This document shows positions 3,011 to 61,100 of a stretch of 64,000 nucleotides of DNA, in pieces (positions within the stretch are counted from its first letter, which is position 1; the number at the start of each line of letters is the position of its first letter). The notes under the pieces were generated by a model. It made no database searches. It had not been told where the DNA came from and saw only the letters and a list, made by a program, of their open reading frames with translations. The stretch comes from Scilla litardierei (lineage: Eukaryota; Streptophyta; Magnoliopsida; Asparagales; Asparagaceae). The translations under genes were made by a program, and so were the position numbers. The DNA lies in assembly GCA_030789695.1 (NCBI GenBank), contig JAULAV010003509.1:1-64000 (forward strand), given 5' to 3'.

Positions 3011-3425
3011 GTAAGAAGGGCCACCGACCGACTAGATGACGATCCAGTCGGTCGGCAATCCTTCTTGGACCGACTAGTTAGCTTTCTAAATTTCTCAGGA
3101 GTTACTGTTTATCGTTAGTCGGTCTAAGAACGTTGGTTGACCGACTAGGTTGCAAACTCGTCGGTCGGCAATGCTTCTTTAACCGACTAACTCATCATCT
3201 TATTTTTTGTATCAGCTACTGTTTACTCTTAGTCGGTCTAAGAACGTTCATCGACCGACTAGATGCCCAAACTAGTCGGTCAGTATTTGTTCATGGACCG
3301 ACTAACTCTAGAATCCTATTTTCGTTCAGGAGTTACTGTTTGCACTTAGTCAGTCTGCGTTGGTCGACCGACCCGACTAGTTGCCAAACTAGTCGGTCAG
3401 TGGTTGCTCTTTGACCGACTAACTA
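3011..3425 (+). repeat. Palindrome array A upstream of TATA (E1 LTR)
   Basis: The motif TAGTCGGTC and its complement GACCGACTA alternate in groups of four (S, S', S, S') with short spacers. The groups are separated by about 40-50 bp that usually contain CAGGAGTTACTGTTT. Four to five groups are present. Each group can fold into nested hairpins or act as paired binding sites. The array ends about 40 bp before the TATA box, so it lies in U3, where enhancers of LTR promoters are found. Confidence 0.9.
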
Positions 3426-3463
3426 GTGTTAAAACCCTAATTTCTGGGCAGCCACCAGCTCAA

Positions 3464-3473
3464 CCTATTTATA
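3464..3473 (+). promoter_or_regulatory. Core promoter TATA box of E1 LTR
   Basis: CTATTTATAC lies just downstream of the palindrome array and upstream of a pyrimidine-rich, ACCC-rich leader, as expected for the U3/R boundary. The same element is at 9195-9204 and 15881-15890 in E3, and as complement near 18201-18210 and 25589-25598 in E2. E4 has a weaker TATTTAAA near 49199. Confidence 0.7.
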
Positions 3474-3753
3474 CCCAACCCAAACGATTTCATCTTCTCC
3501 AACACGACCCAAAACCCTAAAATCTTCCCCCTTTAGCCCCCATCTTCCTCCAAGCTCCATTCCTTCATTCCAAGCCCTAAATCCATCATCCAAACCATCC
3601 ATCTACTCTATCTACCCCTCATCTCTCCCCAAAATCTCACCCAAACCCATTAAAATCCCCAAATCCCCCAAAACCCTAGTTTCCCCAAACTTCTCCAATC
3701 TTTTCCAGATCTGATCCTAGGGTTCCCCGGAGTGTTTCTTCCGTCTCCTCTCG

Positions 3754-3851
3754 GTAAGAAATCGATCTACCGTTGTTTTCTTAACCTATTTATATTTTTA
3801 TGAAACCCTAATATAATTTCATGTTATTTGATGATTGTTCCCCCAAAACAG
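3754..3851 (+). other. Candidate 5' leader intron inside the LTR
   Basis: A conserved GTAAGAAATCG donor and an ACAG|CGATTTCC acceptor bound 98 bp downstream of the predicted transcription start. The same borders, with diverged middles, occur in the E3 LTRs (about 9481-9579) and in the E2 and E4 LTRs. Conservation of both borders while the interior drifts suggests a spliced 5' UTR intron; this is inference. Confidence 0.5.
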
Positions 3852-3907
3852 CGATTTCCCCGTAGATTGGCATCCGTGTGACGAAGTGGTCGTCATCCCC
3901 GGTGCTA

Positions 3908-4659: not shown

Positions 4660-4680
4660 GATTGATAGTAGCGTGGCTAC

Positions 4681-4715
4681 TCTTGTCTTGTCTTGTCTTG
4701 TCTTGTCTTGTCTTG
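4681..4715 (+). repeat. (TCTTG)7 microsatellite
   Basis: Seven perfect TCTTG units lie in the LTR. The E3 LTRs have only two at the same site, consistent with replication slippage. Confidence 0.95.
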
Positions 4716-6620: not shown

Positions 6621-7375
6621 GTGTTCATATTTCACCTTTTGCACACGCTCTTTATCGTGTTTTCATATGCATTTCATCTGATTCCATGTTGTATATATCA
6701 CATTTTGGTTCATATTGACTATTGGGTGTATTGTTTGTATTTCAGGTAAATGTCGATATTTCGGTGTCTATTGGGGTCGACCTTGCATGTCGGGACCAAA
6801 GCACACTCACACGGTAAAGATCCGATGGCCAAAGACGAAAATTTGATGTTTTGGTGCTTCAACGATCGGGTGGACAGTCCCACCCGATCAGTTCGTGCAC
6901 ATATATCTGAACCGACGAGAAGCAAAGATGAAGCAGATCCCACCCGATCGGTTTAGTGATCAGGTGGTCACGACAGTCTTCCCTGTCTTTTAAACCGAAC
7001 TCCACCCGATCGGTTGACTTGTCAACCGATCGGGTCACCGGTAGCGATTTTTCCAAGCTCGAGGCCCCAACATCTCACCCTATCGGTTCAGCGATCAGGT
7101 GATGATCTTCAAGAGCTCTCACCCAATCGGTTGAACTCCCAACCGATCAGGTGGCATCATTTTCTGCGGTTTCATTGGGTTTTTAGACTTGACCCTTAGG
7201 GTTTTGATGGGGACTATAAATATTGGATGTTGGCCGACTTGATGTAGATATCCCCAATTTTTCCAGGAGTTTTCAGCCCCTTTCATGGGAGCTTAGGTTA
7301 GTTTAGATTAGGGCTTTACCTTCCAATAATTCTTGTAATGGATTGATGGATTCAAATGCAAGATAAGTATCTTTT
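6621..7375 (+). repeat. Athila-like LTR B, first segment
   Basis: This is the U3 and promoter part of an LTR interrupted by later insertions. Removing E2 joins AAGTATCTTTT at 7375 to CTTATTTCAATTG at 26448. The LTR resumes at 26443-26701, 33804-34140 and 35876-about 36190. The left boundary is approximate because I cannot place the TG terminus. Identity rests on the upstream tail, the palindrome array, the TATA box and similarity of the last segment to the LTR end at 61.0-61.1 kb. Confidence 0.55.
6861..7222 (+). promoter_or_regulatory. Palindrome array B and TATA box (LTR B)
   Basis: CACCCGATCGGTT and its complement AACCGATCGGGTG alternate through 6861-7154 with some decay. CTATAAATA follows at 7214-7222. 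The layout (CpG palindromes in convergent pairs, then TATA) matches array A, although the motif differs. Related arrays occur at 37408-37753 and 50930-51101. Confidence 0.75.
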
Positions 7376-8869: not shown

Positions 8870-9204
8870 TCGACCGACTAGATGATGATCCAGTCGGTCG
8901 GCAATCCTTCTTGGACCGACTAGTTAGCTTTCTAAATTTCTCAGGAGTTACTGTTTACTCTTAGTCGGTCTAAGAACGTTCATCGACCGACTAGATGCTA
9001 AACTAGTCGGTCAGTACTTGTTCATGGACCGACTAACTCTAGAATCCTATTTTCGTTCAGGAGTTACTGTTTGCACTTAGTCGGTCTGCGTTGGTCGACC
9101 GACCGACTAGTTGCCAAACTAGTCGGTCAGTGGTTGCTCTTGGACCGACTAACCAGTGTTAAAACCCTAATTTCTGGGCAGCCGCCAGCCCAACCTATTT
9201 ATAC
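8870..9204 (+). promoter_or_regulatory. Array A and TATA box of E3 5' LTR
   Basis: Three groups of the TAGTCGGTC/GACCGACTA palindromes precede CTATTTATAC. One group present in E1 is missing, showing that group number varies while the arrangement is kept. This is the promoter expected to drive E3 transcription. Confidence 0.8.
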
Positions 9205-15094: not shown

Positions 15095-15138
<44 letters not shown>

Positions 15139-15264: not shown

Positions 15265-17721
15265 TGTAACGACCGCTTTTCATGTATCTGGATTTAATAT
15301 AATATAATATATGTTTTCATGGATTTTCTCCTCTTGTGTGGTTTTCGTCTCCGTAACTTTCATTTTCGATCGATTCGTCGTATTTTCTCATTTCTTCCTT
15401 AGGATCGTCGATTTCGAAGTGTGTCATTCGTGACGGGCTTCATAACGGTCGTATCTTACTATTAGATCAAGCCTAGGAGTCTTAGGAATCGATCCCGGGG
15501 CCCCGCGCTCCGTATCGGAACTTTTGGTGCTCATTAGCCGGTGTAAGAAGGGGCATCGACCGACTAGATGACGATCCAGTCGGTCGGCAATCCTTCTTGG
15601 ACCGACTAGTTAGCTTTCTAAATTTCTCAGGAGTTACTGTTTACTCTTAGTCGGTCTAAGAACGTTCATCGAGCGACTAGATGCTAAACTAGTCGGTCAG
15701 TACTTGTTCATGGACCGACTAACTCTAGAATCCTATTTTCGTTCAGGAGTTACTGTTTGCACTTAGTCGGTCTGCGTTGGTCGACCAACCGACTAGTTGC
15801 CAAACTAGTCGGTCAGTGGTTGCTCTTGGACCGACTAACCAGTGTTAAAACCCTAATTTCTGGGCAGCCGCCAGCCCAACCTATTTATACCCAACCCAAA
15901 CGACTTCTTCTTCTCCAACACGACCCAAAACCCTAAAATCTTCCCCCTTCAGCCCCCATCTTCCTCCAAGCTCCATTTCTCCATTCCAAGCCCTAGAATC
16001 ATCATCCAAACCATCCAATCACTCTATCTACCTCTCATCTTCCCCAAAGGCTCACCAAAACCCATCAAATCCCCACATCCCCCAAAACCCTAGTTTCCCC
16101 AATCTTCTCCAATCTTCTCCAGATTTGATCCTAGGGTTCCCCGGAGTGTTTCTTCCGTCTCCTCTTGGTAAGAAATCGTTCTACCGTTGTTTTCTTAACC
16201 TATTTGTAATTTTATGAAAACCCTAATTAATTTCATGTGTTTGGTGTTTGTTTCCCCCATAACAGCGATTTCCCCCGTAGATAGCATCCGTGTGACGAAG
16301 TGGTCGTCATCCCCGGTGCTAGGCAAGTGAAACTTGCCACTTAGGGTTTAGGCCATGTTTTAGGCCATTTTCTTGTTGTAGGCGTAAAAGAGACTAGGCG
16401 ACGAAATGATACTTGCCTAGGCGCAAATTGGGGAATTAGCTTGACAACGAAGCTAATTCCGACATTTAGCATGTTGCACAACTATCATGTCACGTTTACT
16501 TTCCATTATCGGTACGCAAGTTAATTGTCATGTCATTGCATCCTTCATGCATTTCAGTGATTGCGTAGCTTTGCTACATTGCCTGTGTTCCTGGCTCGTG
16601 TTCCAGAAGCGGGCCATGTGTTGGTTGATAGCCAATGCCCGAATTGTGTGTTTCCTGGCTCGTGACCAGAAGCGAGCATAATGAGTTGGAAACCCCAACG
16701 CTCGATGTATTGAATTGTGAACTAAGAATGCGAGCTCAATGAGCGGGGCAAACCTCAGGCTCACTAGCTGAGCTCAATGTGCGGGGACCCCAGGCTCCAT
16801 TACGTTTGGGTATAGGGGGTGAGGGTTAAGCGGCCATTCAACTGGGAGTCTGTTTGATCAACAACTGCAGTTGTAAGGCGTAAACTCTTTGGGGTGGGGT
16901 AGTGTTTGGGGCCGATCGGTCTGACATGCTAGCCATTCAGCGAAGGGCGCAAACATCTACAAAACAACCGTGAAATGTGATTGGTGTTTAGTGCCGATCG
17001 GTCTGCAATGCTAGCCATTCAGCGAAGGGCGTAAACACCAACAATGTGAATTGATTGAGATTGATAGTAGCTTGGCTACTCTTGTCTTGTCCCGATGATT
17101 GTTCTCTTGTACAAATCGTCTTGCCATGTTTTAATTGTGCACTCATGTTATAACTGCCATGTCATGCATACTAAACTGCTAGGTTGCTAGATGCCTCACT
17201 TTCAGTTTCCTTGCCCAAGTCTTTTTAGACTTGCTGACATGTGCCCCTTTACTCTTTTGGGTGACACATGTTAGATCCTGAGCCCGAGTCCCTCGTTGAG
17301 GACGAGGTGTTTGCTGACGCCGAGCCCGAGCCTGTGTTTGACGGGGAGTACGTGGACACTGGGGACCAGTCCTAGTGTCTTCGTTGTGTTTTACTTTTGT
17401 TAAACAGTTGTTTGTTATCGGTGCGTAGCACCTATGCTTTGTTATGTCGTTGTTGCTTTTGTTGGCCTTGTTCTGGGCCTTGGACTCTTTTCTTTTAGCC
17501 TGGTGGCTTTTCTGGATGTTGGACTTATTTTGTTGTTGGACAAATTATGAGATGTGAGAATTTTATTTCAGTCTCTCCTTGTAATATTATTGTTATTCCG
17601 TTGTGGTTACAGGGACCTGCTTATGTATCGTGGACGCTTATCGGGTTTGGGGCTTCACAGCTCCACTCTCGTGCGGACCTTTTCACGTCTCGCCTCCATT
17701 TTAGGGAAGCGGGTCGTGACA
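15265..17721 (+). repeat. E3 3' LTR (2457 bp)
   Basis: Same length as the 5' LTR and almost identical. Array A is at about 15556-15841, TATA at 15881-15890 and leader hairpins at 16322-16460. Differences seen include a G in GAGCGACTAG near 15671 and an A in GACCAACCGAC near 15786, both within array motifs. Confidence 0.95.
17268..17375 (+). CDS. Conserved acidic micro-ORF (E3 3' LTR)
   Basis: Second E3 copy of the 35-codon frame, intact. Being part of a young LTR pair it is not independent evidence from the 5' LTR copy. Confidence 0.45.
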   Translation: MLDPEPESLVEDEVFADAEPEPVFDGEYVDTGDQS

Positions 17722-18249: not shown

Positions 18250-18785
18250 ACTGATTAGTCGGTCAAAGAAGGTTGGCTGACCGACTAGTTTAGCAACTAG
18301 TCGGTCGGTCGATTAGCTGTGACCGACTAACACCAAGCAGTGAAATTAGGGAAAAATCCGGGTAATGAATTAGTCGGTCAAAGAGCAACCACTGACCGAC
18401 TAGTTTGAAAACTAGTCAGTCGGTTGACCAACACAGACCGACTAAGTCCAAACAGTAACTCCTGTACAAAAATAGGATTTAGATTTAGTCGGTCAAAGAA
18501 CAACTACTGACCGACTAGTTTCGAATCTAGTTGGTCGATGAACGTTCTTAGACCGACTAAGAATGAATAGTACTTGGTGTCAAAAATGATCATAGAGCTA
18601 GTCGGATAAAGAACGATTGCTGACCGACTAGTTTGCAACCTAGTCGGTAGACCAATGTTCTTAGACCGACTAACGATAAACAGTAACTCCTGAATAATTT
18701 ACAAAGCCCACTAGTCGGTCCATGAAGGTTTGCCGACCGACTAAATCGTCATCTAGTCGGTCGGTTCCCCTTCTTGTACCGGCTA
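18250..18785 (-). repeat. Palindrome array A of E2 3' LTR
   Basis: Five groups of TAGTCGGTC/GACCGACTA palindromes lie upstream, on the minus strand, of a TATA box near 18201-18210. The group at 18256-18329 matches the sirevirus-like LTR group at 32873-32946 at 60 of 74 positions without gaps, and all mismatches are in spacers. Confidence 0.9.
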
Positions 18786-19099: not shown

Positions 19100-19106
19100 C
19101 CAACAC

Positions 19107-23910: not shown

Positions 23911-26442
23911 TGTCACGCCCCGCTTCCCTAAAATGGAGGCGAGACGTGGAAAGGTCCGCACGAGAGTGGAGCTGTGAAGCCCCAAACCTGATAATCGTCA
24001 ATAAAACATAAGCAGGTCCTTGTAACCGCAAGTGGAAACAACAATAATAACACAAGGAGAGACAGAAACAAAAGCTCAATCTCAGAAATTGTCCAACATT
24101 AAAATTAAGTTCAACATCCAGAAAAGCCACCAGGCTAAAAGAAAGAGTCTAAAGGCCCAGAACAAGGCCAAACAAAGTCAAACGTAAACAGAGTATAGGT
24201 GCTGCGCACCGACAATTACATCAGTCTAAAACAAAAAGGGGAAAGCTCAACGAAGACACTAGGACTGGTCCCCAGTGTCCACGTACTCCTCGCCAAACAC
24301 AGACTCGGGCACGGCGTCCGCAAACACCTCGTCCTCAACAACGGACTCAGGCTCGGGATCTAACATGTGTCACCCAAAAGAGTAAAGGGGCACATATTAG
24401 CAAGGCTAAAAGACTTGGGCAAGGAAACTGAAGGTAAGGTAAACTAGCAACCTAGCAGTTATAGTATGATGCATGGCATGGCAAGTATAGTATGGAAGTG
24501 ACAAGTAAAGGGAAGTACAAGTAGCAAGTATGTCACGGATAACAAGTAGAACACGGACAAGTACAAGTCAAGTGGTTCACGTCGATTGAACAGTCAAGTA
24601 AACAAGTTGTGCACAGAGATTTCGCCAGTTGGCTAGAGTGGCTGATGGGGCCAACTCCTAAGCTCAAGTAACCGTTTATCTCTACCCCTCCACGTGTATC
24701 GAGCCAGGGAATTACCCCGAACACGGAATGCTCACTTCTGGAACACGAGCCAGGAAGTGTATTTTACAAGTATGGCGTAGGATTATGCCTGCAACGCAGG
24801 TGCCTAGCTGGTAAACAAGTAGATCGGGCATTGGCTATCAACCAACTCACGTAGCCCGCTTCTGGAACATAGGCCAGGAACACAAGTATTGTAGCGTGTG
24901 CTACGAATGCGACATACAACATGGATAGCATGGATGACAATAAATTCGCGTACCGTTAATCAAAATTAAACATGACATGATAGTTATGCAACAAGATAAA
25001 TGACGGTCCTAGCTTCGTTGTCAAGCTAGTTCCTGAAATTGCGCCTAGGCGAGTATCATTTCGTCGCCTAGTCTCTTTTACGTCTACAACAAGCAAATGG
25101 CCTAAGACATGGCCCAAACCCTAAGTGGCAAGTTTCACTTGCCTAGCACCGAGGATGACGATCAACGAGGGTTCGTCCCACGGATGCTAATCTACGGGGA
25201 AGTTGCTGTTATGGAGAAACAATCATCAAAACAACATTCATTTCATTAGGGTTTCACAAAAACACAACGGGTTATGAAAACATTAAGAGATCGATTATTA
25301 CCGTATCGGAAGCGGAAGAACGACGCCGAGCAAGCACGGCAACGGAAGAAACGCTCCAGGGAACCTAGGGTTCAGATCTGGAATAGATGGGAAAAATCTG
25401 GAGAAATTGGGTTTTGGGGGTTTGATGATGGTTTGAGGAAGATGAGAGGTAGAATGTGTTAAGTGCGGGTTTGGATGATGGATTTTGGGCTTGGGATGAA
25501 GGAATAAGGGTTTGAGGTAGTAGGGGGCTCAATGGGGGAGAAATTAGGTTTAGAGTTGAAGAAGAAGAAGAAGAAAACGTTTGGAGGGGTATTTATAGGG
25601 TTTGGTGGCGGCTAGGGCAAAACTAGGGTTTACTGCACTGATTAGTCGGTCAAAGAAGGTTGGCTGACCGACTAGTTTAGCAACTAGTCGGTCGGTCGAT
25701 TAGCTGTGACCGACTAACACCAAGCAGCGAAATTAGGGAAAAATCCGGGTAATGAATTAGTCGGTCAAAGAGCAACCACTGACCGACTAGTTTGGAAACT
25801 AGTCGGTCGGTTGACCAACGCAGACCAACTAAGTCCAAACAGTAACTCTTGTACAAAAATAGGATTTAGATTTAGTCGGTCAAAGAACAACTACTGACCG
25901 ACTAGTTTCGAATCTAGTCGGTCGATGAACGTTCTTAGACCGACTAAGAATGAATAGTACTTGGTGTCAAAAATGATCATAGAGCTAGTCGGTTAAAGAA
26001 CGATTGCTGACCGACTAGTTTGCAACCTAGTCGGTCGACCAATGTTCTTAGACCGACTAACGATAAACAGTAACTCCTGAATAATTTACAAAGCCCACTA
26101 GTCGGTCCATGAAGGTTTGCCGACCGATTAAATCGTCATCTAGTCGGTCGGTTCCCCTTCTTGTACCGACTAACGTGCACCAAAAGTTCCGAAATGGAGC
26201 GCGAAGCTCCGGGATCGATTCCTAAGACTCCTAGGCTTGATCTAACAATAAGATGTGACCGATATGAAGCCCGTCACGAATGACTTACTCCAAAATCGAC
26301 GATCAACGAATGAAGCTAGGAAAACGCGACGAAACGATCGAAAATGAAAGCTACGGAGAAGAAAACCACACATAAGGAGAAAATCCACCAAAACATATAA
26401 TATAATATAATAAATCCAGATACATGAAAACCAGTCGTTACA
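23911..26442 (-). repeat. E2 5' LTR (2532 bp)
   Basis: Complete LTR with array A at about 25645-26170, TATA near 25589-25598 on the minus strand, leader hairpins at about 25015-25147 and the micro-ORF. It is collinear with the split 3' LTR. Target duplication CTTTT follows at 26443. Confidence 0.94.
24259..24366 (-). CDS. Conserved acidic micro-ORF (E2 5' LTR)
   Basis: Intact 35-codon frame with the same peptide as the E2 3' LTR copy. The frame has stayed open in both LTRs while gag and pol of the same element gained stops. Confidence 0.45.
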   Translation of the reverse strand: MLDPEPESVVEDEVFADAVPESVFGEEYVDTGDQS

Positions 26443-26701: not shown

Positions 26702-28421
26702 TGTAGGGCCCTGGGAAGCAACTGCACATGTACTAGAGGGGTGGTGAATAGTACTTTTAAGTAATAAGGAGTGTTATTCCTAATTATCGTGCAATTAACA
26801 AACAACGATGCGGAATAACTACAATCAAGAAATAATGCAAACGCAAACACAATGGTTTAATGGGTTCGGATCCACCCAAGTCTCCCCGACTTGTTCCCGG
26901 TGATCCTACGTCCCAACCACCCGGATCCCTTCCGGATACTTGAGTTAGAAACCCTAACTCAAGATTTCCAATATGAACACTTGCGAAAACCTCACAAGTG
27001 CAATCGACCTACAATCGATGACCGTGACTCCCACAACCCGGGATCACGCAAAACCTCTCACAACCGAGAGTATATAATTCAAATATAACTGAAATGAAAT
27101 GCTTACCAACAAAATACCTATGCCTTGAGATTTCTTACCAAATTAGGGCAAAGAGGATTTTGATGGAGGAAGAGTCACCAAACCCTAGCTTCAAGAAGAT
27201 GACCAGCAATGGAAGCCTAGGGTGGAGATGGTGACCTAGAATCAAGCTTCTAGCTTGAATGGCTCACAATGGAGAGAATCTCTCTTGAGGATTTAGGACT
27301 CAAGAACTTGAGGGAGAGATTCTTGTGAGAAGAGAGAGCTTGGAAATAGAGTTGATTGCTCTTCTCTTTTGATCTGAAAATATCTCCAATATGTTGCTTA
27401 ACCCCTTCAAGAAATGAATCAGGATTCTATTTATAGGGGCAAGGAAAAACGAGTTCAAAAAGATCCCAACGGCTCTATTCTGAACCAGACTAGTCGGCCA
27501 AAGAAGGATCACTGACCGACTAGTTCATCAACTAGTCGGTCGGTGAGACAACATGGACCGACTAAGTGAGGAACAGCCAAAAGGTGAAGTTCCAGGCAAA
27601 GACAACTAGTCGGTCTAAGAAGACTTGCCGACCGACTAGTTTCTCAACTAGTCGGTCGGTGAATGTTCTTTGACCGACTAACGTCGAATTAGGATAGGTT
27701 GACTTCAAGATGACTTAGTCGGTTTAAGAACAAATGCTGACCGACTAGTTTCTCAACTAGTCGGTCGGTAAACGTTCTTTGACCGACTAACTCGAAACAG
27801 TAGCTCAGGCTGAAAAAGATTGAACACAACTAGTCGGTCTAAGAAGGATTACTGACCGACTAAATCGTCATCTAGTCGGTCGGTGACTCTTCTTTGACCG
27901 ACTAACTGTAGTCATAGAAAGAGCTGAATTAGAGAAGGCAAACTAGTCGGTTTAAGTAGAGTTTCCGATCGACTAGATCGTCATCTAGTCGGTTGGTGAC
28001 TCTTCTTGAACCAACTAACATGCACTCGAAGCCGAGGGAAAGAGCGATAGGCTTCGGGAAAGTTTCTAATGGCTTCTATGATAATCCTAGCTCTAAGATA
28101 TGAGCGAAATGAAGGTTATAAGGTAAGTCCTACTCAAGGCTTAACATTCTAATCTATGAAGCTAGAAGACTATAAAATAAACCTTACGAGCCGTCTTCAA
28201 AGCTTCAATCTTCATTCCTCTTGACTTCAATATTGCTCCTTGAGCTTCAACGAAGCTCCAGGCACACGATCACGCATATTGAGAAGTCTTGAGACGTCGC
28301 TTTTGTTGTACGTGGTATTTTGGCGACGATCTCCATAACTGCGCTCACAAATTGTTAGTTCACGATTTATTTATGTTTGCTCATCATCCAAAACCAAATC
28401 CGGGGAGTCCAATACTCAACA
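26702..28421 (-). repeat. Sirevirus-like 3' LTR with array A
   Basis: 1720 bp. On the minus strand, palindromes of the TAGTCGGTC/GACCGACTA type fill about 27482-28020. A TATA box (CCTATAAATAG, complement about 27426-27437) follows, then the transcribed part. Units closely resemble those in the Ty3/gypsy E2 LTR, although the rest of the LTR is unrelated. Confidence 0.93.
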
Positions 28422-29690: not shown

Positions 29691-32042
29691 CTAACCCTTC
29701 GGAAACCAAGTCCAAGAGGAACTTGACTTCCCAACATAATCATCATTTAAAATAACATCATTAATATATGATTTCACATAAACATTCATAGCATTATCGC
29801 TAGTGTTCTTGGGACCCCAAATAGTGTACATTTTGGGAATCCTCTTCCTAGTGGTTGCATGCACAAAAGGTTGATTTCTATGTGGTGCATGTGGCCTAGG
29901 AGCATGAGATCTAGCAATAGCATTATGATGAGCATGAGATCCATGATGTGGTGTAGCATACATACGTGGATAAGCATGAGGTGTGTATGCATGAGGATGA
30001 TTATGGGAGAAGGCATGCACATGAGGATGAGATGTTTGAACATAGGCATTAGGATGTGCACGAGCATGATTACGTGCATGTGGGTGTCGCATATGAGTGT
30101 TTGCACGTGCTCGTGGGTGCGGAGCATAAAGATCATCATTAATATGAACCGGTGGAGTAGGATGTGTGTTCCTACGTGGCATAGCATGTGAGTACAAAAA
30201 TGCATGACCCCTCTTTGGAGGTCTACCCATAGTGGGTTTCTTTCCAATCGGGGGTGTGTACGAAGTGGAAGCACTATTGGTAGGAGAACTACCAATGGGG
30301 TGTTTGCTCCCACTCGTCGAGGCATCGGATGTCGGCCTAACAAAGGTGGTAGGCGATTTGGATGAGTCTCCCATCTTATACCCCAAGCCAATGTGGTGTT
30401 TGGCCGGAAGTAAGTCATTTAGGATATTATCCAAATGGCCCTTACCTTTATTGAAATCATTGATACGGCCTAACGTGCACTCATACTTCTCTTTGAGAGA
30501 ATGCAAAGAAGCATCCAAAATGGATACTTGCGATGTGAGTGCATAAACACGTGATTTGAGATTCTTATTCTCAATACTCAAAGTTGAGTTTTGAGACGTC
30601 AAATCCGCTATCACATGTTCATCCGAATCCTCAACACGAACATGCTCAAGTTGAGATTTGATGTTCTTCACCTCATTTCTCAACAAGCCATTATGAGTAA
30701 GCAAACTTGCTTTCTCATTGGCGAGTGTCTCAACAATGGTGTCATTGTTGGTGATGGTAGACTTAGGAGAGGTTTGGAGGTTGACAAGTTCATCTTTGGT
30801 CTTATTATATCGATCTACTAATTTAGTAAATTTAGACCAAATTTCTTGGTTTTCTAACCTCATTTCATCAATAGTAGGTTCTTCACTTTCCTCCTCGCTA
30901 CCATCCTCGCTTTCATCCTCGCTATCATCGAAGGAGGACTTTCGATCTTTTGCCTCATTCGCCATGAAGCAAAGTTTTGCTTTCTCCACTCTTCCATCAT
31001 CCGACTCTCCACTTGAGGAATCCTCTTCGGAGTCGGTGAATGTGCCAACAAGTCCTTTCTTGTACTTTCTCGACTTGTCGTACTTTGATGCTTTCCCCTT
31101 CTCCTTGTGTTTGTAGAGAGGACAATCCGGTTTGATGTGTCCTGGCTTGTTGCATTTATAACACACGGGAGTAGAAGCATTAGTCGAACTAACTTTAGAT
31201 TTATTCAAAGATATACCTTCTCGGAGGAATCGATCGAACTTCCTTGCCATACGGGCAATGGATTCCATGTCCAATTCGTCTTCCGATTCTTCATCATCGG
31301 TAGATGGAGCGGCCTTGAAGGCAATCGTCTTTTTCTTTGGCTCATCTTGCTTCAAGTACGCTTTCATCTTTTCCTTCATTCGGATCTTACTATCCTTGCG
31401 TACCTCGTAAGACAACAAGGTACCCATTAGTTGTACGACGGTATATTTATTCATGTCATTACCTTCCTCGATGGCGAAGGTACGCTTTTCCCAACATGAT
31501 GGAAGACCGTCGATAATCTTCGCGACTTTCTCCTTTTAGGTATAGACCTTCCCAAGAGCTTCCAAGTCGTTTGATATATCCACAAAGCGAGCGTAATATT
31601 CCTTCATGGTTTCGCCCTGCTCCATATGAAACAACTCAAATTCTTTATTAGCAACGACGAGTTTAGAATCTTTTACCGTACTCGATCCTTCGTGCAATAT
31701 GAGGAGTTTGTTCCATATTTGATATGCACTCTTACATGTGCATATCTTGTTGAAGTCCTCGGGCTCCAACGCACAATTCAAGGCATTCATTGCCTTGGCA
31801 TTGGCTACTTCCGCGGCGACCTCCGCGGGAGTCCACTTCGCGAAATCTTCTTCGGAAGGCTCGACATACTCCGTCATGGTGGCTCTCTATAGTGAAGCGC
31901 TCCGGAGGAAAATTTGCATCTGGCATTTCCAGTACCCATAGTTGGTACCGTTGAAGTGTGGAGGCCTGACTGAGGATAGTCCTTCCATAACTGAAGAATC
32001 TCCATCGCGGTTCTTGAAGACGTTGTAGTCGTTGTTCGTCAT
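29691..32042 (-). pseudogene. Sirevirus-like gag with His-rich tail, two stops
   Basis: About 784 codons. The start (MTNNDYNVF) and the block RPPHFNGTNYGYWKCQM are typical of plant copia Gag. A UBN2-type capsid region follows, then a CCHC knuckle (C-Y-K-C..H..C at about residues 294-307), an acidic Ser/Glu stretch, a predicted coiled-coil region (about 400-530) and a C-terminal 100 residues very rich in His, Ala and Pro. Two in-frame stops interrupt it: TAG at complement 31887-31889 and TAA at complement 31536-31538. From 31454 to the end the frame is open for 587 codons. No protease or Pol follows. Confidence 0.88.
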
Positions 32043-32081: not shown

Positions 32082-32083
32082 AT

Positions 32084-34140: not shown

Positions 34141-35875
34141 TGTTGGATCCTGTGGATGGAAAACAATACTAGAAGGGGGTTGACTCCCTAGGAATGGTAG
34201 TCGAATATTGCCAGAAATCCCCATTGACACATTCCATCAAACTTTCTCGATTGTTAATAAACGTCCTTCTAATATTGCCTAAGAAACCAAGTAGAGCGAT
34301 CTACGCTTGGTTCTTAATCAACAAAGTAATCTAAAAAATCACAGAGTAATTTCACAGCAGGTAGTCGACTCCCTATGAACAGTAGTCGACTCCCAGAGAA
34401 TTTATAAGCACAGTTAAGATAGATAAGATTACAAGTAATAAATATTATATCTTTATTCACAGCGGATAAAAGTAAGTTAATGTTTGCAATAGATGAACAC
34501 CAATTAGCAAATAATAAAGTAAGAGCAAAGATAAACAAACACAGATAAGCAATCGCAGACACAATGATTTTTATCATGGTTCCCCACAACTTTTGGGTAC
34601 GTCCAGTCCCCGACCAATCCGGTACGAGATTTTCCACTATCTGCCTTGGCAAATACAAATACATAACTTCACTCGTTAGGATTTCCAACGACCTAGTCTT
34701 GACCAGGATTTCCGACTGGTAACACCTAGACTTGTCTAGTGTTCCAACAACAACACAATAAAATTGATTTCCAATTCACCACAATAAATAGGTGGAGATT
34801 GGTTTTACATCCAGATTCTATAGCCAAATGATAATAGACAAAATTGCGTGTAGTGGCTTGATAGAATAAGATTCTAGATCACACAAAGATACGAATGAAT
34901 TCTTTGTGATCTAGATCTAATGTTTTTCAAAAATCCTTTAAACAAAAATCAAGAGAAAAGTAATACGGATTTGAAAAACAGTTAGCCAATAAAACAAGAT
35001 TATGATCTTCAGAAAATAATAACAGAATTTGCAAGATCACAAATAAAACAGAATTGGCTAAAGAGAGAATGAGAGCTTAGAACTTTAGAGCGTTTGCATG
35101 AGAGAATTTGAATTCAATAGTTGTTGTGTTTTTCTTAATGAAAATGGTCCTCTATTTATAGGAGAAATCTGAGAGTTTGAAATTCAAATTACTTTGACTT
35201 TTGTCCCAAAAATCATGGGAGAAAATCGCTCAACGATATTTCAAAATTCAAGTCAAAACGTCAAACTTCGACAGCTGGTAGTCGACTCCCTAGGAATGGT
35301 AGTCGACTCCGAGTGTGTTTCAGGAAATCTTGATTCTCAGCTGGTAGTCGACTCCCTACCTTTGGTAGTCGACTTCCAGAGGAGTTTTTCCTGCGACACA
35401 GCTAGTCAAGCAAGTAGCTAATCTCCAGGGTGTGTGGAGTTTCACTACGGAATTACAAAACGACTAGAGAAAGCTCTCAAAATCATTTTTGAAGATGATT
35501 TAAAAGATATTCAAAAACATTTTAAAATCGTTTGTGTGTGTGTGTTTGTCTATACAATTTGGCTTTAACAATACCCTAAAAAGACAGAACACACTCACTA
35601 TAGACTAGGACACGTCTTCGGAAGCTTGATCAATTTGATGGAGTAGATGTGAGCTTCACTTGAGCTTCTTGTTCTATTTGAGCTTTGAGCTTCATCATTT
35701 GATCTTAGCCACGTTCATCCTTGTCTTTGAGCGTAGATTGCGCTTCTTTGAGTATGAGTAAAGATTTTCATTTGTCGCATATCATGCACACTTAATTGTA
35801 GTGTAGTTAGTACACTAAGCTTCATTTGGTGTGCTTATCATCAAAATCACTTGGGGTGGAATTTAATTTCCATCA
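34141..35875 (-). mobile_element. Solo LTR (1735 bp) with GTATC target duplication
   Basis: Bounded by TGTTGGATCC and TTTCCATCA and flanked by perfect GTATC duplications (34136-34140 and 35876-35880). There is no primer site, coding frame or second LTR inside, so it is best read as a solo LTR left by LTR-LTR recombination. A TATA box (CCTATAAATAG, complement 35151-35162) sets orientation to minus. The start TGATGGAAATTAAATTCC resembles copia/sirevirus-type LTRs. GTAGTCGACTCCC motifs occur upstream of TATA (35276-35375) and again downstream (34175-34400). Confidence 0.9.
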
Positions 35876-37390: not shown

Positions 37391-37407
37391 TTTATGCAGG
37401 AATTACC

Positions 37408-37772
37408 CCACCCGGTCGGTTCATGCATCAACCGATCGGGTGGCCAATATCAGTAAAGTGCCCAACTTCAACACACGAGCGAACCGACCGGTTGACAGAA
37501 GCGGCGATCGGGTTGCAGATCGGTGATGATGACAGAAGCCTCGGGAATTTTTGGTGAAAGTTCAACCGATCGGTTGACAGAAGCTGTGATCGGGTCGCTG
37601 ACCGGGTGGAGATGACAGAAGCCTCAGAAATTTTGGGGAGCGGTCAACCGATCGGGTGAAATCTCACACGATTGGTTCACCTGTAACTGCTATCCAACCG
37701 TCAATTTTCAAAAAATGACCCAACCGATCGGGTGAACTCTCACCCGATCGGTTTGCCTAACCCTATATATAT
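37408..37772 (+). promoter_or_regulatory. Palindrome array B with TATA upstream of ORF-1-like gene
   Basis: CACCCGGTCGGTT, AACCGATCGGGTG and related palindromes fill 37408-37753. CTATATATAT follows at 37763-37772, then a C-rich leader and an ORF. The flanks do not match LTR B at 6.6-7.4 kb, so this may be an internal promoter-like module or part of another LTR. Confidence 0.6.
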
Positions 37773-41479: not shown

Positions 41480-42708
41480 GACCCCGGATATACACCCGGA
41501 GAACGATTGTAGTTTTACCACAAGCGCACGGTCAAGTGGCGAGCGGGTATCGAACACGAGGAGGTGGTGTTGGTTCCAATCTATCCTAGGTTGGCTCGAC
41601 TACGAAGGTTTTATTGGTGGAGATGGCTATGGTATGATGTAATGTCAATGGTGGTGGATATCGGTGTCGGAGATAGAGAAGTCGGATAAAATATCGATTC
41701 AAATATAAGACAATAAAAGTGTCTAGGGCTAGGAAATCCCCACTACGGGTCGTCATTCATCCTTGTAAATATTAAATCTCAATATTACTAGACTTGTGTC
41801 GAGGTGAACTAGTCGTAACTGAATAGAGAACCAAGCTCACGCTCTCTCGCTATTGTCGGTCTATAGAAACCTAAATTAGGGCCCACTCTCATGCAAACCC
41901 TAATCTAAGCCACTAGCATTAGGGTCGACATCATTGTTCAATCGCCCCTCGAGCCCACTCTCGTGCAAACTCGAGTTACGATCTAGGTTGTGATAGTTCG
42001 TATTCGTCCAATCTCTTGCAAACGAATATGTGTATAGATTTACAATTAAAAATCCTAGCTTTGGTCCAATCTCTTGCAAACCAAGTCTAGAGAATCTCGA
42101 TTGTAAACCTAAATCGAATATCTAGACCTTCCCATCGATTAGAATCCAATCTCTTGCAAACCCCAATCGATGGAAATCCCTAGCTATCCGTAATAAATCG
42201 ATCACAACCTAACCTCCTAGAAATTCTAGCAATTTAAGAATTCATTCATCACAAATCTGAAATTAGATCCATATGGTTCATCCCCATGCCCTAGAACATC
42301 AAATCTTCTCTAGCATAGCAACAAGGATATAAGAATCAATAAAAATCATTGCTTGCATATAAAAAGATAGAAAAACAAAGATTCAAATAAGAAGAACAAA
42401 ATACTTAGCTTGATGAAGATATTCAATCCAAATACAAGCTTTTAGATCCAAGAGGGGGCCTAGGGCATGGCCTTACCTCTAAAATAACTCTAAGAAACCA
42501 TAATGGGAACCTAAGAAAACATGGGGGGAACCTAAGAAAATATCATGGGGATCCCCTCTAATGGTGGCTACAAAACCCCTTTTATATCCCCCCAAAACCC
42601 TAGCAAATAACCCTAGAAAACCCCTCAAATTCGTGCCCAAAAACAGCCCAAACCGCAACTTAAAATCTGGGCCCGCCGCCGACTCGGCCGAGTGGAAAAT
42701 GTGGCTAC
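41480..42708 (-). mobile_element. Athila-like LTR (minus), truncated by E4
   Basis: On the minus strand this runs from a CpG palindrome ACTCGGCCGAGT (42682-42693) through a TATA box (GATATAAAAGG, complement about 42579-42589) to an LTR-end-like block (complement about 41500-41570). It resembles, in inverted orientation, the LTR at 59.8-61.1 kb. Repeated CCAATCTCTTGCAAAC and CCACTCTCATGCAAAC words occur at 41880-42170. The U3 start is lost at the junction with E4. No gene is present. Confidence 0.6.
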
Positions 42709-48425: not shown

Positions 48426-48433
48426 GTGTTGGG

Positions 48434-48471: not shown

Positions 48472-50898
48472 TGTAACGACTGGTTTTCATGTATTTGGAT
48501 TAGCTATATTATATTATATGTTTTGGTGGATTTTCTCCTTATGCGTGGTTTTCGTCTCCGTAGCTTTCATTTACGATCGTTTCGTCGCGTTTTCCTAGCT
48601 TCTTCCGTTGATCGTCGATTTCGGAGTAAGTCATTCGTGACGGGCTTCATATCGGTCATATCTTATTGTTAGATCAAGCCTAGGAGTCTTAGGAATCGAT
48701 CCCGGAGCTTCGCGCTCAATTTCGGAACTTTTGGTGCACGTTAGCCGGTACAAGAAGGGGAACCGACCGACTAGATGACGATTTAGTCTGTCGGCAAACC
48801 TTCATGGACCGACTAGTGGGCTTTGTAAATTATTCAGGAGTTACTATTTCTCGTTAGTCGGTCTAAGAACATTTGTCGACCGACTAGGTTGCAAACTAGT
48901 TGGTCAGCAATCGTTCTTTAACCGACTAACTCTATGTTCATTTTGATGCCAAGTACTATTCATTCTTAGTCGGTCTAAGAATGTTCATCGACCGACTAGA
49001 TGACAAACTAGTCGGTCAGTAGTTGTTCTTTGACCGACTAAATCTAAATCCTATTTTTGTACAGGAGTTACTGTTTGGACTTAGTCGGTCTGCGTTGGTC
49101 AACCGACCGACTAGATTCCAAACTAGTCGGTCAGTGGTTGCTCTTTGACCGACTAATCAGTGTCGAAACCCTAATTTCTGGGCAGCCGCCGGCTGTGCCT
49201 ATTTAAACCCCCCCCAAACGTTTTCTTTCCTTCTTTCACTTCTCCTGAGCCTCCTTCTTCCCCAAATCACTCTCCAACATTTCCCCAAGCCATTCCTTCC
49301 TCCCTTGGAGTTTCCCTCTCTATTTTGGTCTACCACCATGCCCTAGGCCATCTCCAACCCCCAAAAATCCCCAAAACCCCATTTCTCCAGATTTTCCCCA
49401 TCCATTCCAGATCTGAACCCTAGGTTCCCCGGATCATTTCTTCCGTTGTCGTGCTTGCTCGGCATCGTTCTTCCGCTTCCGATACGGTAATAAATCGATC
49501 TCTTAATATTCTCATAGCCCATTTGTGTTTTTGTGAAACCCTAATAAAACTAGGTTGGATGTTGTTCTAATGTCGTTTTGCCATGGCAGCGATTTCATCG
49601 CCGTAGTTAGCTTTTGTGTGATGGCCTCGTTGATCGTCATCCTCGGAGCTAGGCAAGTGAAACTTGCCACTTAGGGTTTGGGCCATGTCTTAGGCCATTT
49701 ACTTGTTGTAGGCGTAAAAGAGACTAGGCGACGAAATGATACTCGCCTAGGCACAATTTCGGGAACTAGCTTGACAACGAAGCTAGGACCGTCATTTATC
49801 ATGTTGCATAACTATCATGTCATGTTTAATTTTGATTAACAGTACGCGAATTAATTGTCATCCATGCTATCCATGTTGTATGTCGCATTCGTATCACACG
49901 CTACAATGCTTGTGTTTCCTGGCCCGTGTTCCAGAAGCGGGCTACGTGAGTTGGTTGATAGCCAATGCCCGATCTACTTGTTTACCGGCTAGGCACCTGC
50001 GTTGCAGACATAACCCTACGCCATACTTGTTAAATACACTTCCTGGCTTGTGTTCCAGAAGCGAGCATTCCGTGTTCGGGGTAATTCCCTGGCTCGATAC
50101 ACGTGGAGGGGTAGAGATAAACGGTCACTTGAGCTTAGGAGTTGGCCCGATCAGCCACTCTAGCCAACAGGCGGAATCTCTGTGCACAACTTGATTACTT
50201 GACTTGTTTAGTTGACTTGTTCACTTGACGTGAACCACTTGACTTGTACTTGTCCGTGTTTTACTTGTTATCCATGACATACTTGCTACTTGTACTTCCC
50301 TTTACTAGTCACTTCCATACTATACTTGCCATGCCATGCATCATACTATAACTGCTAGGTTGCTAGTTTACCTTACCTTCAGTTTCCTTGCCCAATTCTT
50401 TTAGACTTGCTGACATGTGCCTCTTTACTCTTTTGGGTGACACATGTTAGATCCCGACCCTGAGTCCGTTGTTGAGGACGAGGTGTTTGCGGATGCCGTG
50501 CCCGAGTCTGTGTTTGGCGAGGAGTACGTGGACACTGGGGACCAGTCTTAGTGTCTTCTTTGAGCTTTCCCCTTTTTGTTTTAGACTGCTGTAGTTGTCG
50601 GTGCACAGCATCTATACTCTGTTTACGTTTGTCTTTGTTTGGCCTTGTTCTAGGCCTTTAGACTCTTTCTTTTAGCCTGGTGGCTTTTCTGGATGTTGAA
50701 CTTAATTTTAATGTTGGACAATTTTTGAAATTGAGACTTTGTTTCTGTCTCTCCTTGTGTTATTATTGTTGTTCCGTTTATGGTTACAGGGACCTGCTTA
50801 TGGTTTATTGACGCTTATCGGGTTTGAGGCTTCACAGCTCCACTCTCGTGCGGACCTTTTCACGTCTCGCCTCCATTTTAGGGAAGCGGGGCGTGACA
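48472..50898 (+). repeat. E4 3' LTR (2427 bp)
   Basis: Complete LTR: array A at 48751-49165, weak TATA (TATTTAAA) near 49199, leader intron borders at about 49486-49590, leader hairpins 49652-49790, then the conserved 3' third. It belongs to the same LTR subfamily as E2 (plus-strand view of the same sequence). Confidence 0.95.
50444..50551 (+). CDS. Conserved acidic micro-ORF (E4 3' LTR)
   Basis: Intact 35-codon frame ending YVDTGDQS and TAG. It starts MLDPDPESVVEDEVFADAV, with the second Glu of the DPEP block changed to Asp relative to E2. Confidence 0.45.
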   Translation: MLDPDPESVVEDEVFADAVPESVFGEEYVDTGDQS

Positions 50899-51290
50899 AC
50901 AGTCCTCTCTGTTTTCTTGAGCTGAACTCCAACCGATCGGTTGACTTGTCAACAGATCGATTCAGCTGTAGATGATCTTCCCAAGCTCAATAGCCGAATG
51001 ATTTCACCCGATCAGTTCAGTGATCGGGTGAAGTATTTCAGAAGCTGAAGACCCGGTTCGCGATCGTATCAACCGATCGGTTGATGTTTCAACCGATCGG
51101 TTGGACGCTTATTTTTGTCTTCTTCTAGGAAAATTCCCTGGCATCTTTCCAGAATGTATATATAGCCCTAGGTTTCCCAGAAAACGAGAATCCCATTTTC
51201 TTAAGCATTTTTTAGGGATTTTGGCTGCTGCTAATTTATTTTGCTTTGTAAGTTTTTTGATCGCTTTGATACTTTAATATTGCGTTAATA
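50899..51290 (+). repeat. Athila-like LTR B-type fragment with array and TATA
   Basis: ACAGTCCTCTCTGT and the following palindromes match LTR B from about 6973. AACCGATCGGTT motifs run to 51101 and a TATATATAG box is at about 51157-51165. The fragment begins at the E4 insertion point and ends near 51290, where it meets a different LTR. Confidence 0.65.
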
Positions 51291-58440: not shown

Positions 58441-58700
58441 CTCAACTATAAATAAAGGACTGGGTCATCTCCTAGAGTTGACGCTTCATAACACGTTATA
58501 AGCACGATTCTCTAAAAATTTTGCAAATATCCGTTCGTTACGAAAACGATGAGAAGGCGGCAGATTCATCACGAGTGGGATTCGTCTTCCACGCGCGGAC
58601 TTCGTCTTCCATGCGTAGGCTTCGTCAACCTTCGCTAGATCAGGAAGACAGATCTAGAGGTATTATTTCAAAAATCTTATTTTTATCATGATTATGATAC
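58441..58700 (+). repeat. Ale/Retrofit-like copia LTR end and primer-site-like motif
   Basis: CTATAAATAAAGG at 58447-58459 is TATA-like. AACACGTTATAAGCACGA at 58491-58508 resembles the ACACGTTATCAGCACGA junction typical of Ale/Retrofit-type copia elements. A short downstream leader is present, but no gag. Confidence 0.4.
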
Positions 58701-59035
58701 ATTCCTCTATCGATCTCGCAAGATCGGATTAGAAAATCGATATTCTCTTCCTATATTAAAGCCGATGAATTTTTATTGTCGATACTAGGAATAATATCAT
58801 CAAAACCTTATTTTTAGGGTTTCTACATACAATAAAATAAGAAGAACATTTTTACAAAAATATATATAATAATATTATACTCCACCACGGCTCCATCGGC
58901 GGCATAGCTGTCGGCCGTCGTGGGTAGCCCCACGTAGCATCCCACCGTGCGCCCCCCCCCCCCCCCCCCCCCCCCCCCCCCACCAAGGAGGAGGGATGCT
59001 GACGCCTTGCACCGGCATAAGCCCCATCCACCCCT
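58701..59035. other. Unassigned sequence with C30 homopolymer
   Basis: AT-rich to 58880, then a GC-rich 150 bp with a run of 30 C residues (58952-58981). No gene is supported. Confidence 0.6.
58952..58981. repeat. Homopolymer C30
   Basis: Thirty consecutive C residues, far longer than any other homopolymer here. Could be real, with i-motif or G-quadruplex potential on the complement, or an assembly or consensus error. Confidence 0.9.
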
Positions 59036-59345
59036 TGTAGGAAGATATGTGCCCTCGTGGCAATTTATCTAGAAAACATCTTGTTCAAATATAATTGTAC
59101 TAATTATCCTAGTATGATTTAAATGTTTTTTAAATACTTGGATAATTTCCTTAGACTTAAAGTAAGGTCAGACACGTATCTAGATGGAGATGTCGATAAT
59201 GGGAAGTGAATTACTAATAGGAACTTAAGTTTTAAAACGGTCATGGTCATAGATGTGTCGAGAAAAGGATATCGGCACATCGGACAGACCATTGTGTCTT
59301 TGTCTTAACATAAAGGGTAATGATGATCTCATTGATATGCATGTA
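59036..59345 (+). repeat. Copia LTR 5' fragment (Angela/Tork-like)
   Basis: TGTAGGAAGATATGTGCCCT followed by CGTGGCAATTTATC resembles the LTR start of Angela/BARE-type copia elements (TGTTGGAAATATGCCC). The right border is approximate and no internal region follows. Confidence 0.5.
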
Positions 59346-61100
59346 GTTTACACATTTATTCTCATACATTCATAACATGTTTCACCCTCCACATCCCAAT
59401 TTTATTCGTTGTTCGATGAATATTTGGAATTATTTCACTTTCGGAGCGTTGATGTTGATTTCAGGGAATTTGGAGCGATACGGTGCAATCTGGAGATGAA
59501 GTCATGATTGATGATGCAAGAGCAGCAAGAATACCCATGGATATGAGTTGGAAGCACCAAAAGACAAGGAATACAGATCTATGAAAGTTGGAGCAAAGAA
59601 GAAGAGGAAACAAAGGTATAATGCATGTAACATCAAAGATTTACGCACTACCTCCACCTTGTTTTGATTTCTGCTATCATTCCAGAGGCCATCTCGACTT
59701 GGGGATATCTTTCAGTCATGATAGACTTCATGACGATTCCAACGCTGCCAAGAACGCGCCAAACGGAGGTCAGATGAATTTTCTTGAATTTTTGCAACAT
59801 TGGGTAGCAGTACTGAAATTTCGCGTATCAGTGTCACTCCGCCGAGTGACCCTTTCACTCGACCGAGTGAGATCTCACTCGGCCAAGTGACCAAAAAAAT
59901 AGAATGCTGTTTTTTGGAGTTTTCACTGGAATTCTCACTCGACCGAGTGAGAAACTTACTCGACCGAGTGATCAATCAGCCAGAAATCTGAAATTCTGTT
60001 ACAACTAGGGTAAAGTGTATTTTGGTCAACTTTTTCTTAGGGATTTTCGGGAGCTATAAATACAACTTTGTAGCTGTCATTGAGGGAGAGTTCCTATTAT
60101 TTTTTCTTGGAGACTTTTTTAGAGGTTAGACCATACCCTAGGCACCCTCTTGGATTTAAAAGCTTGTCTTTGGATTGGATTTCTTCATGAAAGCTAAGTA
60201 TCTTTGTATTTGTTATTTGAATCATGGATTTGATATCCTTTTATATGCAAGCAATGTTTCTTATTGGTTTCTATACCATTATTGCTATGCTTGGTTGATT
60301 CATGTTCTAGGGCAAATGGATGAACCCTATGGATCTAGGGGTTGATATGTAGAATTGATTGAAACTCTTGTTGCTAAACTTGTTTTAGGGTTAGATTATG
60401 ATCGATCTACTACGAATTGCTATGGATTTCTGCTTAGATCTTGAGAGCTCCAGAGAGGATCTTGATATATAGGAAGCCCTAGATATTCGATTTAGATCTA
60501 TAATTTAGATACCCTAGAATTGGTGCACGAGAGCGACTAAAGCTAGTATCTTTATTATATTTCAATAATTATATTCGTTTGTACGATGGTAAAACGAATA
60601 CAAACCATCATAATATAGATTCGAACTCACGTTGCGCGAGAGCAAACTTGAGTTAGAATTGAAGTATATTGTTGATCTTAATGCTAATAATTTGACCTAT
60701 GCTTGCGAGAGAGCGAGGTTCTAGTTTAGATTACTATAGACTTGTGTAAAACGAGAGCATGCACTAGTTCTCAATATAGTTGCGACAATTTCATCCTAAA
60801 CTAAGAGTTAGTAATTAGGATTTCGCATTCACATTGATACTCAAAAATCTGTAGTGGGGATTTCCTAGTCCTTGACATTCCTATTAATTGAATTTACAAC
60901 CGACATCTTTATCATCGACATCGACATCCATCTCCATTGTCATTACATCATACCATAACCATCTCCACCAATAAACATTCGTAGTCGAGCCAACCTAAGA
61001 CAGATTGGAGCCAACACCACCTCCTTGTAGATACAATACCCGCTTGCCACTAGACCATGCACGATAAAACTGCATAATTTTGGGAGTACATCCCGACACA
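59346..61100 (+). repeat. Athila-like 5' LTR (LTR C)
   Basis: It ends ATCCCGACACA. It contains the palindrome array and TATA (below), then about 1 kb of transcribed sequence. The end block (GCCAACACCACCTCCTTGTA, CCCGCTTGCCACTAGACC) matches the inverted LTR at 41.5 kb and the end of LTR B. No gene is seen. Confidence 0.65.
59836..60064 (+). promoter_or_regulatory. Palindrome array C and TATA box
   Basis: CACTCGACCGAGTG, a perfect 14-bp palindrome, and close variants occur five times at 59836-59976. CTATAAATAC is at 60054-60063. The layout is as in arrays A and B, but the motif differs. Confidence 0.8.

Follow-up and report, generated by a model that had tools for sequence, protein, structure and literature searches.

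Self-comparison indicates that much of the 64,000-nucleotide stretch of plant DNA analysed here (contig JAULAV010003509.1 of Scilla litardierei, assembly GCA_030789695.1; hereafter, the window) is filled with long terminal repeat (LTR) retrotransposons nested in each other. Here we consider the dyad-symmetric, CpG-containing motifs (motifs A to E) that precede the TATA-type boxes of these LTRs and, in particular, motif A, which is found in LTRs of two superfamilies, Ty3 and Ty1/copia. Four Ty3 elements were delimited by self-comparison: T1 (1-5348, plus strand), cut by the window edge, with the 3' LTR at 2733-5348; T2 (7376-26442, minus strand), with the target-site duplication CTTTT and the 5' LTR at 23911-26442; T3 (8579-17721, plus strand), located within the 3' LTR of T2, with the target-site duplication ATGGC and LTRs at 8579-11035 (5') and 15265-17721 (3') that are 99.4% identical; and T4 (42708-50898, plus strand), with a truncated 5' LTR and the 3' LTR at 48472-50898. 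Element S (26702-33803, minus strand), the Ty1/copia member of this set, has LTRs at 26702-28421 and 32084-33803 that are 99.2% identical.

Motif arrays and their position before TATA

A motif-blind scan of the entire 64 kb for local inverted 8-mers, with stretches scoring at least 20 retained, yielded 17 stretches. Thirteen strong peaks (scores of 39-261) each hold one array, namely those of T1, T2 (two), T3 (two), T4, S (two), B1, B2, B3, C and D; the other four scored 29, 21, 20 and 20, to be compared with 20 first-order Markov shuffles, in which the highest scores were 17-27. Together with a single copy of motif E, this makes 14 loci, and the motif copies lie close to where the initial annotation, made from the sequence of the window, had placed them. 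For motif B, certain corrections are due: the site at 50930 has AACCGATCGGTT variants instead of the exact consensus, and neither 6861 nor 37408 holds a perfect copy. In all 14 loci, a TATA-type box follows 10-116 bp downstream on the strand of the element, in 10 of them by the strict pattern TATAWAW and in T1, both T3 LTRs and T4 by TATTTAWA at 44 bp, a relaxed pattern that was added after inspecting these loci. A chance match within 160 bp is expected with a frequency of 6.4% (strict) or 8.8% (relaxed), and on the other side of the motifs a box was found in one of the 14 loci; the loci are not independent, eight of them being motif A. The proposal that several lineages share a design upstream of TATA is thereby supported.

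Arrays of motif A comprise 11-20 monomers, with the TATA-type box at 44-55 bp. The monomers are laid out in units of about 115 bp (+ 23 - 19 + 23 -, then about 50 bp to the next unit). Such arrays are found in the 3' LTR of T1 (3026..3421, plus; TATTTATA box 44 bp downstream), the 5' and 3' LTRs of T3 (8872..9151 and 15558..15837, plus), the 3' and 5' LTRs of T2 (18256..18762 and 25643..26172, minus, the latter with five units; TATAAATA at 18210 and 25597, minus), the 3' and 5' LTRs of S (27491..28010 and 32873..33392, minus; TATAAATA at 27435 and 32817, minus) and the 3' LTR of T4 (48646..49155, plus, including the DNA just upstream, hereafter the leader). Motif B forms three arrays on the plus strand: B1 (6860..7152; TATAAATA at 7215), B2 (37402..37753; TATATATA at 37764) and B3 (50931..51102, shortly after the end of T4; TATATATA at 51157). 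Motif C is represented by five palindromes (59836..59969, plus; 20-21 bp within groups; TATAAATA at 60055), and motif E by a lone palindrome within a C-family LTR (42682..42693, minus; TATAAAA at 42586, minus), 15 bp from the adjoining Ty3 fragment. The motif-D array (35277..35377, minus; TATAAATA at 35160, minus) consists of two doublets 21 bp apart; a target duplication was looked for at the LTR borders of its element, and none was found. The initial annotation placed motif D upstream of TATA, which is correct for the array; another doublet, also 21 bp apart, lies at 34360-34394, approximately 0.8 kb from the D TATA box on its opposite side and beside a minus-strand TATAAAT.

A U3 cassette common to Ty1/copia and Ty3 LTRs

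The LTR of S was compared with the LTR of each of the four Ty3 elements over four segments outside the array, with the similarity scored against shuffles. In the 140 bp before the array, none of the 300 dinucleotide shuffles scored as high in any of the four comparisons (z of 12-22). The other segments behaved differently: for T4, T2, T3 and T1, respectively, 16, 132, 197 and 31 of 300 shuffles scored as high at the LTR 5' ends, 198, 40, 296 and 246 of 300 in the 140 bp after the array, and 14, 37, 6 and 18 of 100 in R-U5, that is, by these segment comparisons, the LTR ends, TATA region, R and U5 of S and the Ty3 elements are not detectably related. Since the last 30 bp of the segment before the array correspond to the first, degenerate monomer and hence to the array itself, the leader was re-tested without them; none of the 500 shuffles reached the observed score for any of T1-T4, with 62-70% identity over 73-77 aligned bases. 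The leaders of T2 (26149..26268, minus; 120 bp, the last 25 bp or so being the degenerate monomer and spacer) and of S (27994..28113, minus) are, accordingly, homologous, with 63-69% identity between S and the Ty3 elements, as compared to 84-98% among the latter. The array spacers, with the motifs masked, are also similar between S and Ty3 (0 of 300 letter shuffles as high in 4/4 comparisons). Convergent origin of array A in the Ty3 elements and in S was rejected in view of this homology of spacers and leader.

On the strength of these alignments, motif A and the DNA just upstream of it are one homologous U3 cassette that spans two superfamilies. In the tree of array units, the first units of the Ty3 arrays group with that of S (support 0.89). 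Beyond the first unit the correspondence is loose: S_2 and S_4 have their nearest counterparts in T2 units of equal position, S_1 and S_3 do not. Because the leader identity is lower between S and Ty3 than within Ty3, the sharing of the cassette appears to predate the split between T1/T3 and T2/T4; it also appears to predate the insertions, to judge from the identity of the LTR pairs (95.6-99.4%). The view that each lineage has its own motif has to be modified, given that motif A is present in four Ty3 elements and one Ty1/copia element: it is homologous in the two superfamilies, and therefore the motifs are not simply independent inventions. In a limited search of the open-licence literature, neither U3 exchange between Ty1/copia and Ty3 nor palindrome arrays in Ty3 LTRs were found. 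Candidates for array A outside the window came from a scan of viral contigs, where two contigs had a lone hairpin each, in one case followed by a terminator-like run of T; these were dropped.

The Ty1/copia affinity of S is indicated by its coding and terminal sequences. A copia-type gag (31536..31883, minus) matches PF14223 (E 5.9e-17), a zinc knuckle is present in the open reading frame (ORF) at 29691-31535 (minus), and the homologues of the main ORF contain PF14223 in 7/7 and PF13961 in 3/7 cases. The known Sirevirus traits are the CA/ATTGG/TATCAGAGC 5' junction and multiple AGGGGGAG octamers, the last of these 10 bp upstream of the 3' LTR, along with an AT/TG attachment site in 20 of 21 elements, which makes that site usual, not universal (PMC2829016, from the excerpts available). 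The 5' junction of S, CA-ATTGG-TATCAGAGC, matches the Sirevirus form exactly; five AGGGGGAG polypurine octamers are present, four of them within about 280 bp of the 3' LTR, and the last one starts 10 bp before that LTR, as in Sireviruses. By these features, S is classed as a Sirevirus-like Ty1/copia element; we refrain from calling it a Sirevirus because it has AA/TG at the attachment site. In the S LTR, the distance from the end of CACCACCCCTCTAG to the LTR end is about 31 bp, the C-rich signal of Sireviruses being located at about 21 bp, a comparison by position only. The presumed target duplication, TGGGG/GGGGG, is one base off. As no pol domain was detected in 8 of the 9 internal ORFs of at least 110 amino acids (the ORF at 30208-30546 was left out), and gag only was found, S looks non-autonomous. 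A stretch inside S, at 29301-29751, is the one that scored 29 in the inverted-repeat scan, just over the shuffle maxima.

A second chimeric LTR

The count of five LTR types in the initial annotation is an overestimate: the LTRs of C and E are members of a single family, with 73% identity over 1004 bp, and E is a single palindrome. This family is involved in another apparent exchange. The B1 and B3 arrays are homologous even with the motifs masked (0 of 500 shuffles as high), and the 220 bp downstream of them show no similarity between the two loci (82 of 200 shuffles as high). Instead, the B1 downstream region matches E (z of 6.7 and 9.1) and C (z of 5.0 and 6.1), with 0 of 200 and 0 of 100 shuffles as high in both cases. 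The segment 35573-36200, for which the similarity has z 13.2 with E and z 4.0 with C, is taken to be the displaced U5 end of the B1 LTR; segment 26443-26701 gives a weak match (z of 3.6 and 3.4), and 33804-34180 matches neither E nor C. That the B1 pieces form one LTR we infer from the nesting. By these matches, the B1 LTR is a chimera in which an array common with the LTR-like B3 locus sits on R-U5 of the C/E family. The PBS-like TTTTGGTGCCGTTGTCGGGGA (PBS, primer-binding site) near 61105 may be of the Athila/Tat type, a label that would extend to the LTRs of B1, C and E. The turnover that had been suggested is supported both by this chimera and by the varying unit number of the Ty3 arrays.

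B2 was considered as a homologue of B1 and B3 and rejected, since with the motifs masked 286 and 43 of 500 shuffles scored as high, the palindrome alone being shared. B2 and its good TATA box sit between an aspartyl-protease remnant upstream (36269-36598) and an ATG at 38205, and the region 37402-38205 has no repeat partner in the self-comparison of the window. By analogy with the boxes described upstream of the env ORF in env-bearing Sireviruses (PMC2829016, excerpts), B2 may act as an internal promoter driving a second ORF, an LTR promoter being the alternative.

Architecture and spacing of the motifs

The motifs were described as having a self-complementary core and occurring as alternating copies and complements. 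The former is true of B-E, which are near-palindromes of 12-14 bp, many of them grouped at 20-21 bp, and not of A, where the dyads lie between monomers; the latter is meaningful for A only, as orientation means little in B-E because they are near-palindromes. In motif A, which is not self-complementary, the dyads span neighbouring monomers 19 or 23 bp apart, their centres being 21 bp apart; the half-sites CGGTC/GACCG are present with 14 or 10 bp between them, and the A arrays do not contain the compact pattern CGG-N(0-3)-CCG. The palindrome count is in keeping with this difference: none of 200 dinucleotide shuffles was as high for B2, C and D each, 11 for B1 and 8 for B3. In the three A arrays tested, the monomers not being palindromes, the count was within shuffles (43, 123 and 139 of 200), and array A as a set of compact palindromes was rejected.

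In B, C and D taken together, adjacent dyads are separated by 28 gaps, half of which (14) measure 20-22 bp; with all gaps included, a Rayleigh test for a 10.5 bp period gives p 4e-6. A doublet spacing of two helical turns (20-21 bp) is common to four different motifs. The pentamer RCCGA occurs at 42, 29 and 35 per kb in the A, B and C arrays, respectively, as compared to 2.3 elsewhere; its extension RCCGAC, which we take to be similar to the dehydration-responsive element (DRE-like), reaches 41.5 per kb within the A arrays, for instance those at 25643-26172 and 27491-28010, vs 0.45 elsewhere, with its form ACCGAC dense in array A, and GAANNTTC is found at 4.7 vs 0.47 per kb.

Possible function of the arrays and alternative explanations

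The explanation that we favour, with moderate confidence, is that the arrays serve LTR promoters as homotypic upstream regulatory modules, i.e., swappable enhancer cassettes for a dyad-recognising host factor. Under this scenario, a host DNA-binding factor would recognise the dyad, with RCCGA as the half-site in A, B and C/E, bind cooperatively on one face of the helix and activate the LTR. The modules would pass between LTR families by recombination, either through template switching of co-packaged RNAs or through gene conversion between nested copies, and would then expand and contract as tandem units. Transfer from Sireviruses to Ty3 appears the more likely direction because CGG-CCG boxes are reported to be common in Sireviruses (PMC2829016). 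The donor, the mechanism of exchange and the binding factor are all what we infer from the sequence.

Several observations weigh against this explanation. The RCCGA half-site and the candidate factor family, AP2/ERF-DREB, are our own reading, made without a motif library, and motif D lacks RCCGA and has a doublet outside the promoter. Half of the 28 dyad gaps fall outside 20-22 bp, two of them being 12 bp, and without the gaps of 20-22 bp the Rayleigh test gives p 0.07 (n=14); the motif-free periodicity of CpG lags is clear only in S (0 of 500 shuffles), weak in T2 (15/500) and T1 (36/500), and absent in T4 (111/500) and in B, C and D. Therefore, the two-turn doublet is shared, and helical phasing beyond the doublet is not demonstrated. 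The positions of S and Ty3 units clearly correspond for the first unit only, S_1 and S_3 being closest elsewhere. The comparison of motif and spacer columns given below is biased to motif conservation because the units were located by their motifs, and the very stable RNA folds of the arrays fit an RNA-based role equally well.

Such a role, which we consider unlikely, would have the arrays act as RNA: U3 being at the 3' end of the genomic RNA, microRNA-like hairpins would feed small-RNA silencing or serve as a decoy. Array windows of 150 nt, indeed, fold far below the rest of the LTRs, with a mean z of -7.0 in T4, -5.3 in T1, -6.3 in S, -6.9 in C and -3.1 in B1 (no motif-D window qualified), vs -0.4 to -1.3 for the remainder of those LTRs, one non-array window of S reaching -7.5; the seven whole arrays examined have z from -4.3 to -17.7. 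In maize, palindromes of Sirevirus LTRs have been reported as small-RNA hotspots with strong predicted folds and rapid evolution (PMC5311732, PMC10760457, from excerpts of both). However, hairpins in B-E are to be expected from the palindromes anyway, and the spacer arms show no covariation: the arms of the same unit have 8.84 of 14 positions paired vs 8.75 with the arms of other units (permutation p 0.37). Compensatory pairing in the 74-nt unit was likewise rejected: it amounts to 81.7% in register vs 18-43% when slid, but 86 of 500 shuffles of the 3' letters were as high, and selection on RNA structure is, therefore, not supported. It is even less probable that the array is a platform of symmetric CpGs, the methylation of which would be read by the host, either repressively or via methyl-reading activators. 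The ratio of observed to expected CpG is 0.78-1.37 in the arrays measured, as against 0.52-0.74 for T1, T4, S, C and D in R-U5 or the remaining LTR and 0.88 in the flank of E, but the adjacent U3 of T1, T4, S and B1 is similarly CpG-rich (1.03-1.68), and neither the dyads nor their spacing would be explained. Protection of CpG in the arrays was not borne out either, as transitions between LTR pairs are no rarer there (7/164 CpG positions) than in the remaining LTR stretches (12/348) of three elements: 2/39 vs 3/185 in T3, 5/67 vs 6/85 in T2 (U3 half) and 0/58 vs 3/78 in S. The suggestion that CpG itself is the object of selection thus finds no backing. RNA- or CpG-based functions are less supported than the regulatory one because the spacers lack compensatory pairing and the CpGs lack protection.

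The arrays could also have no function in their own right, with palindromes expanding by slippage and unequal recombination and spreading between LTRs via repeat recombination. The number of units does differ between the Ty3 copies (3 in T3, 4 in T4, 5 in T2), and concerted evolution would also keep the motifs alike; nevertheless, we regard this explanation as improbable, given that different motifs share their position and the 20-21 bp doublet spacing. Furthermore, the Ty3 units group by position, not by element, in the unit tree and, therefore, have escaped homogenisation within the arrays. The motif columns are also less variable than the spacer columns (8/144 vs 25/152 variable columns in four positional groups, Fisher p 0.003, in a test that favours motifs); this count covers 13 of 14 units, T2_4 having no partner, with the second LTRs of T2 and T3 and one missed T1 unit omitted. 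Equally doubtful, in our opinion, are separate captures of the motif-A cassette by each superfamily, from a host sequence or from another mobile element. The edges of the cassette lie within U3 on both sides in both elements, and the maize Sirevirus palindrome is also present in Helitrons (PMC10760457, excerpts), as such captures would suggest. However, a leader together with a multi-unit array with corresponding first units would need to be captured twice, the inverted-repeat scan has no strong peak outside the listed arrays, and no target-site duplication at the edges was seen by eye, no dedicated search having been run.

Returning to the regulatory modules, one can envisage a more general scenario, which we put forward tentatively, as somewhat less than probable: both superfamilies would draw on a common pool of swappable cassettes, each consisting of a leader and a dyad array with a two-turn grammar, exchanged between Ty1/copia and Ty3 as well as between other LTR families. 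If so, a single recombination event could bring unrelated retrotransposons under the same host control, so that they are activated or silenced jointly, and each family would have a regulatory history separate from its coding one. It would also become clear why the promoter half of an LTR is difficult to classify on the basis of coding genes. The claim of a shared host factor is testable, and for the Sirevirus boxes another, independent lineage would become available for seeking that factor.

Relation to known systems

CpG palindrome arrays as such are already known as the repeated-motif (RM) boxes of Sireviruses, palindromes with a CGG-CCG core that precede TATA in 8 or more copies (Bousios et al. 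2010, PMC2829016), and the initial annotation was right to note the resemblance. In the excerpts of that report, a repeated box is described in 13 of 21 Sirevirus elements, the RM is called Sirevirus-specific and absent from classic Ty1/copia, and no common binding factor could be named; as far as these excerpts show, the elements compared did not include Ty3. The likeness consists in the array design upstream of TATA, and S fits it closely. In contrast to the RM boxes, the arrays described here also occur in Ty3 LTRs, where one array is homologous to that carried by the Sirevirus-like element, their dyads recur at 20-21 bp, and motif A splits the dyad over two monomers. The maize palindromes mentioned above are alike in being clustered in the cis-regulatory part of the LTR and in their strong predicted folds; as far as the excerpts go, those reports concern Sireviruses and Helitrons, whereas here Ty3 elements are involved too, and the arrays are known from sequence alone.

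Diversification or recombination of U3 within one family has been described for Tnt1 (PMC1838419), crapaud (PMC10787394) and ONSEN (PMC5668417), where, similarly, the part of U3 that precedes TATA evolves or recombines independently of the remaining element. In the available parts of these papers, exchange takes place among members or subfamilies of one family, whereas here Ty1/copia and Ty3 share a cassette. The tandem repeats of Retand, as described in the excerpts of PMC11963269, lie between pol and the 3' LTR, and this comparison was not taken further. A reported target-site preference for palindromes (PMC6911290, excerpts) was set aside, as it concerns insertion sites, not U3 arrays. What is new here is the U3 cassette across superfamilies, the B1 chimera and the common two-turn spacing of doublets.

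Other features of the window

The coding regions of the Ty3 elements are unevenly preserved. T4 encodes a Ty3 gag (PF19259/PF03732), RVT_1, parts of an integrase and a weak chromodomain match (E 5.9e-5), and T2 encodes the same type of gag, a protease, RVT_1 and a weak chromodomain match (E 1.3e-4), both chromodomain matches being under Pfam's cutoff. In T1, reverse transcriptase (RT) is present and there is no chromodomain match at E 0.001. The named sources among the 120 RT homologues listed are mostly plants, e.g., Cucumis, Tanacetum and Solanum. T3 is assigned to Ty3 by LTR homology only; its internal region (11036-15264) contains long TA runs and, in the three ORFs scanned, a weak zinc-knuckle match only, so that T3 is apparently a non-autonomous Ty3 element. 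T1-T4 are putative chromoviruses, the candidate lineage label Tekay being taken from the initial annotation. Downstream of B3, at 51437-51928, self-comparison reveals an inverted fragment similar to the Ty3 LTRs, with about 69-79% identity. Finally, the protease-coding remnant contains, at 36420-36649, a tandem duplication of 115 bp, the copies of which are 95% identical.

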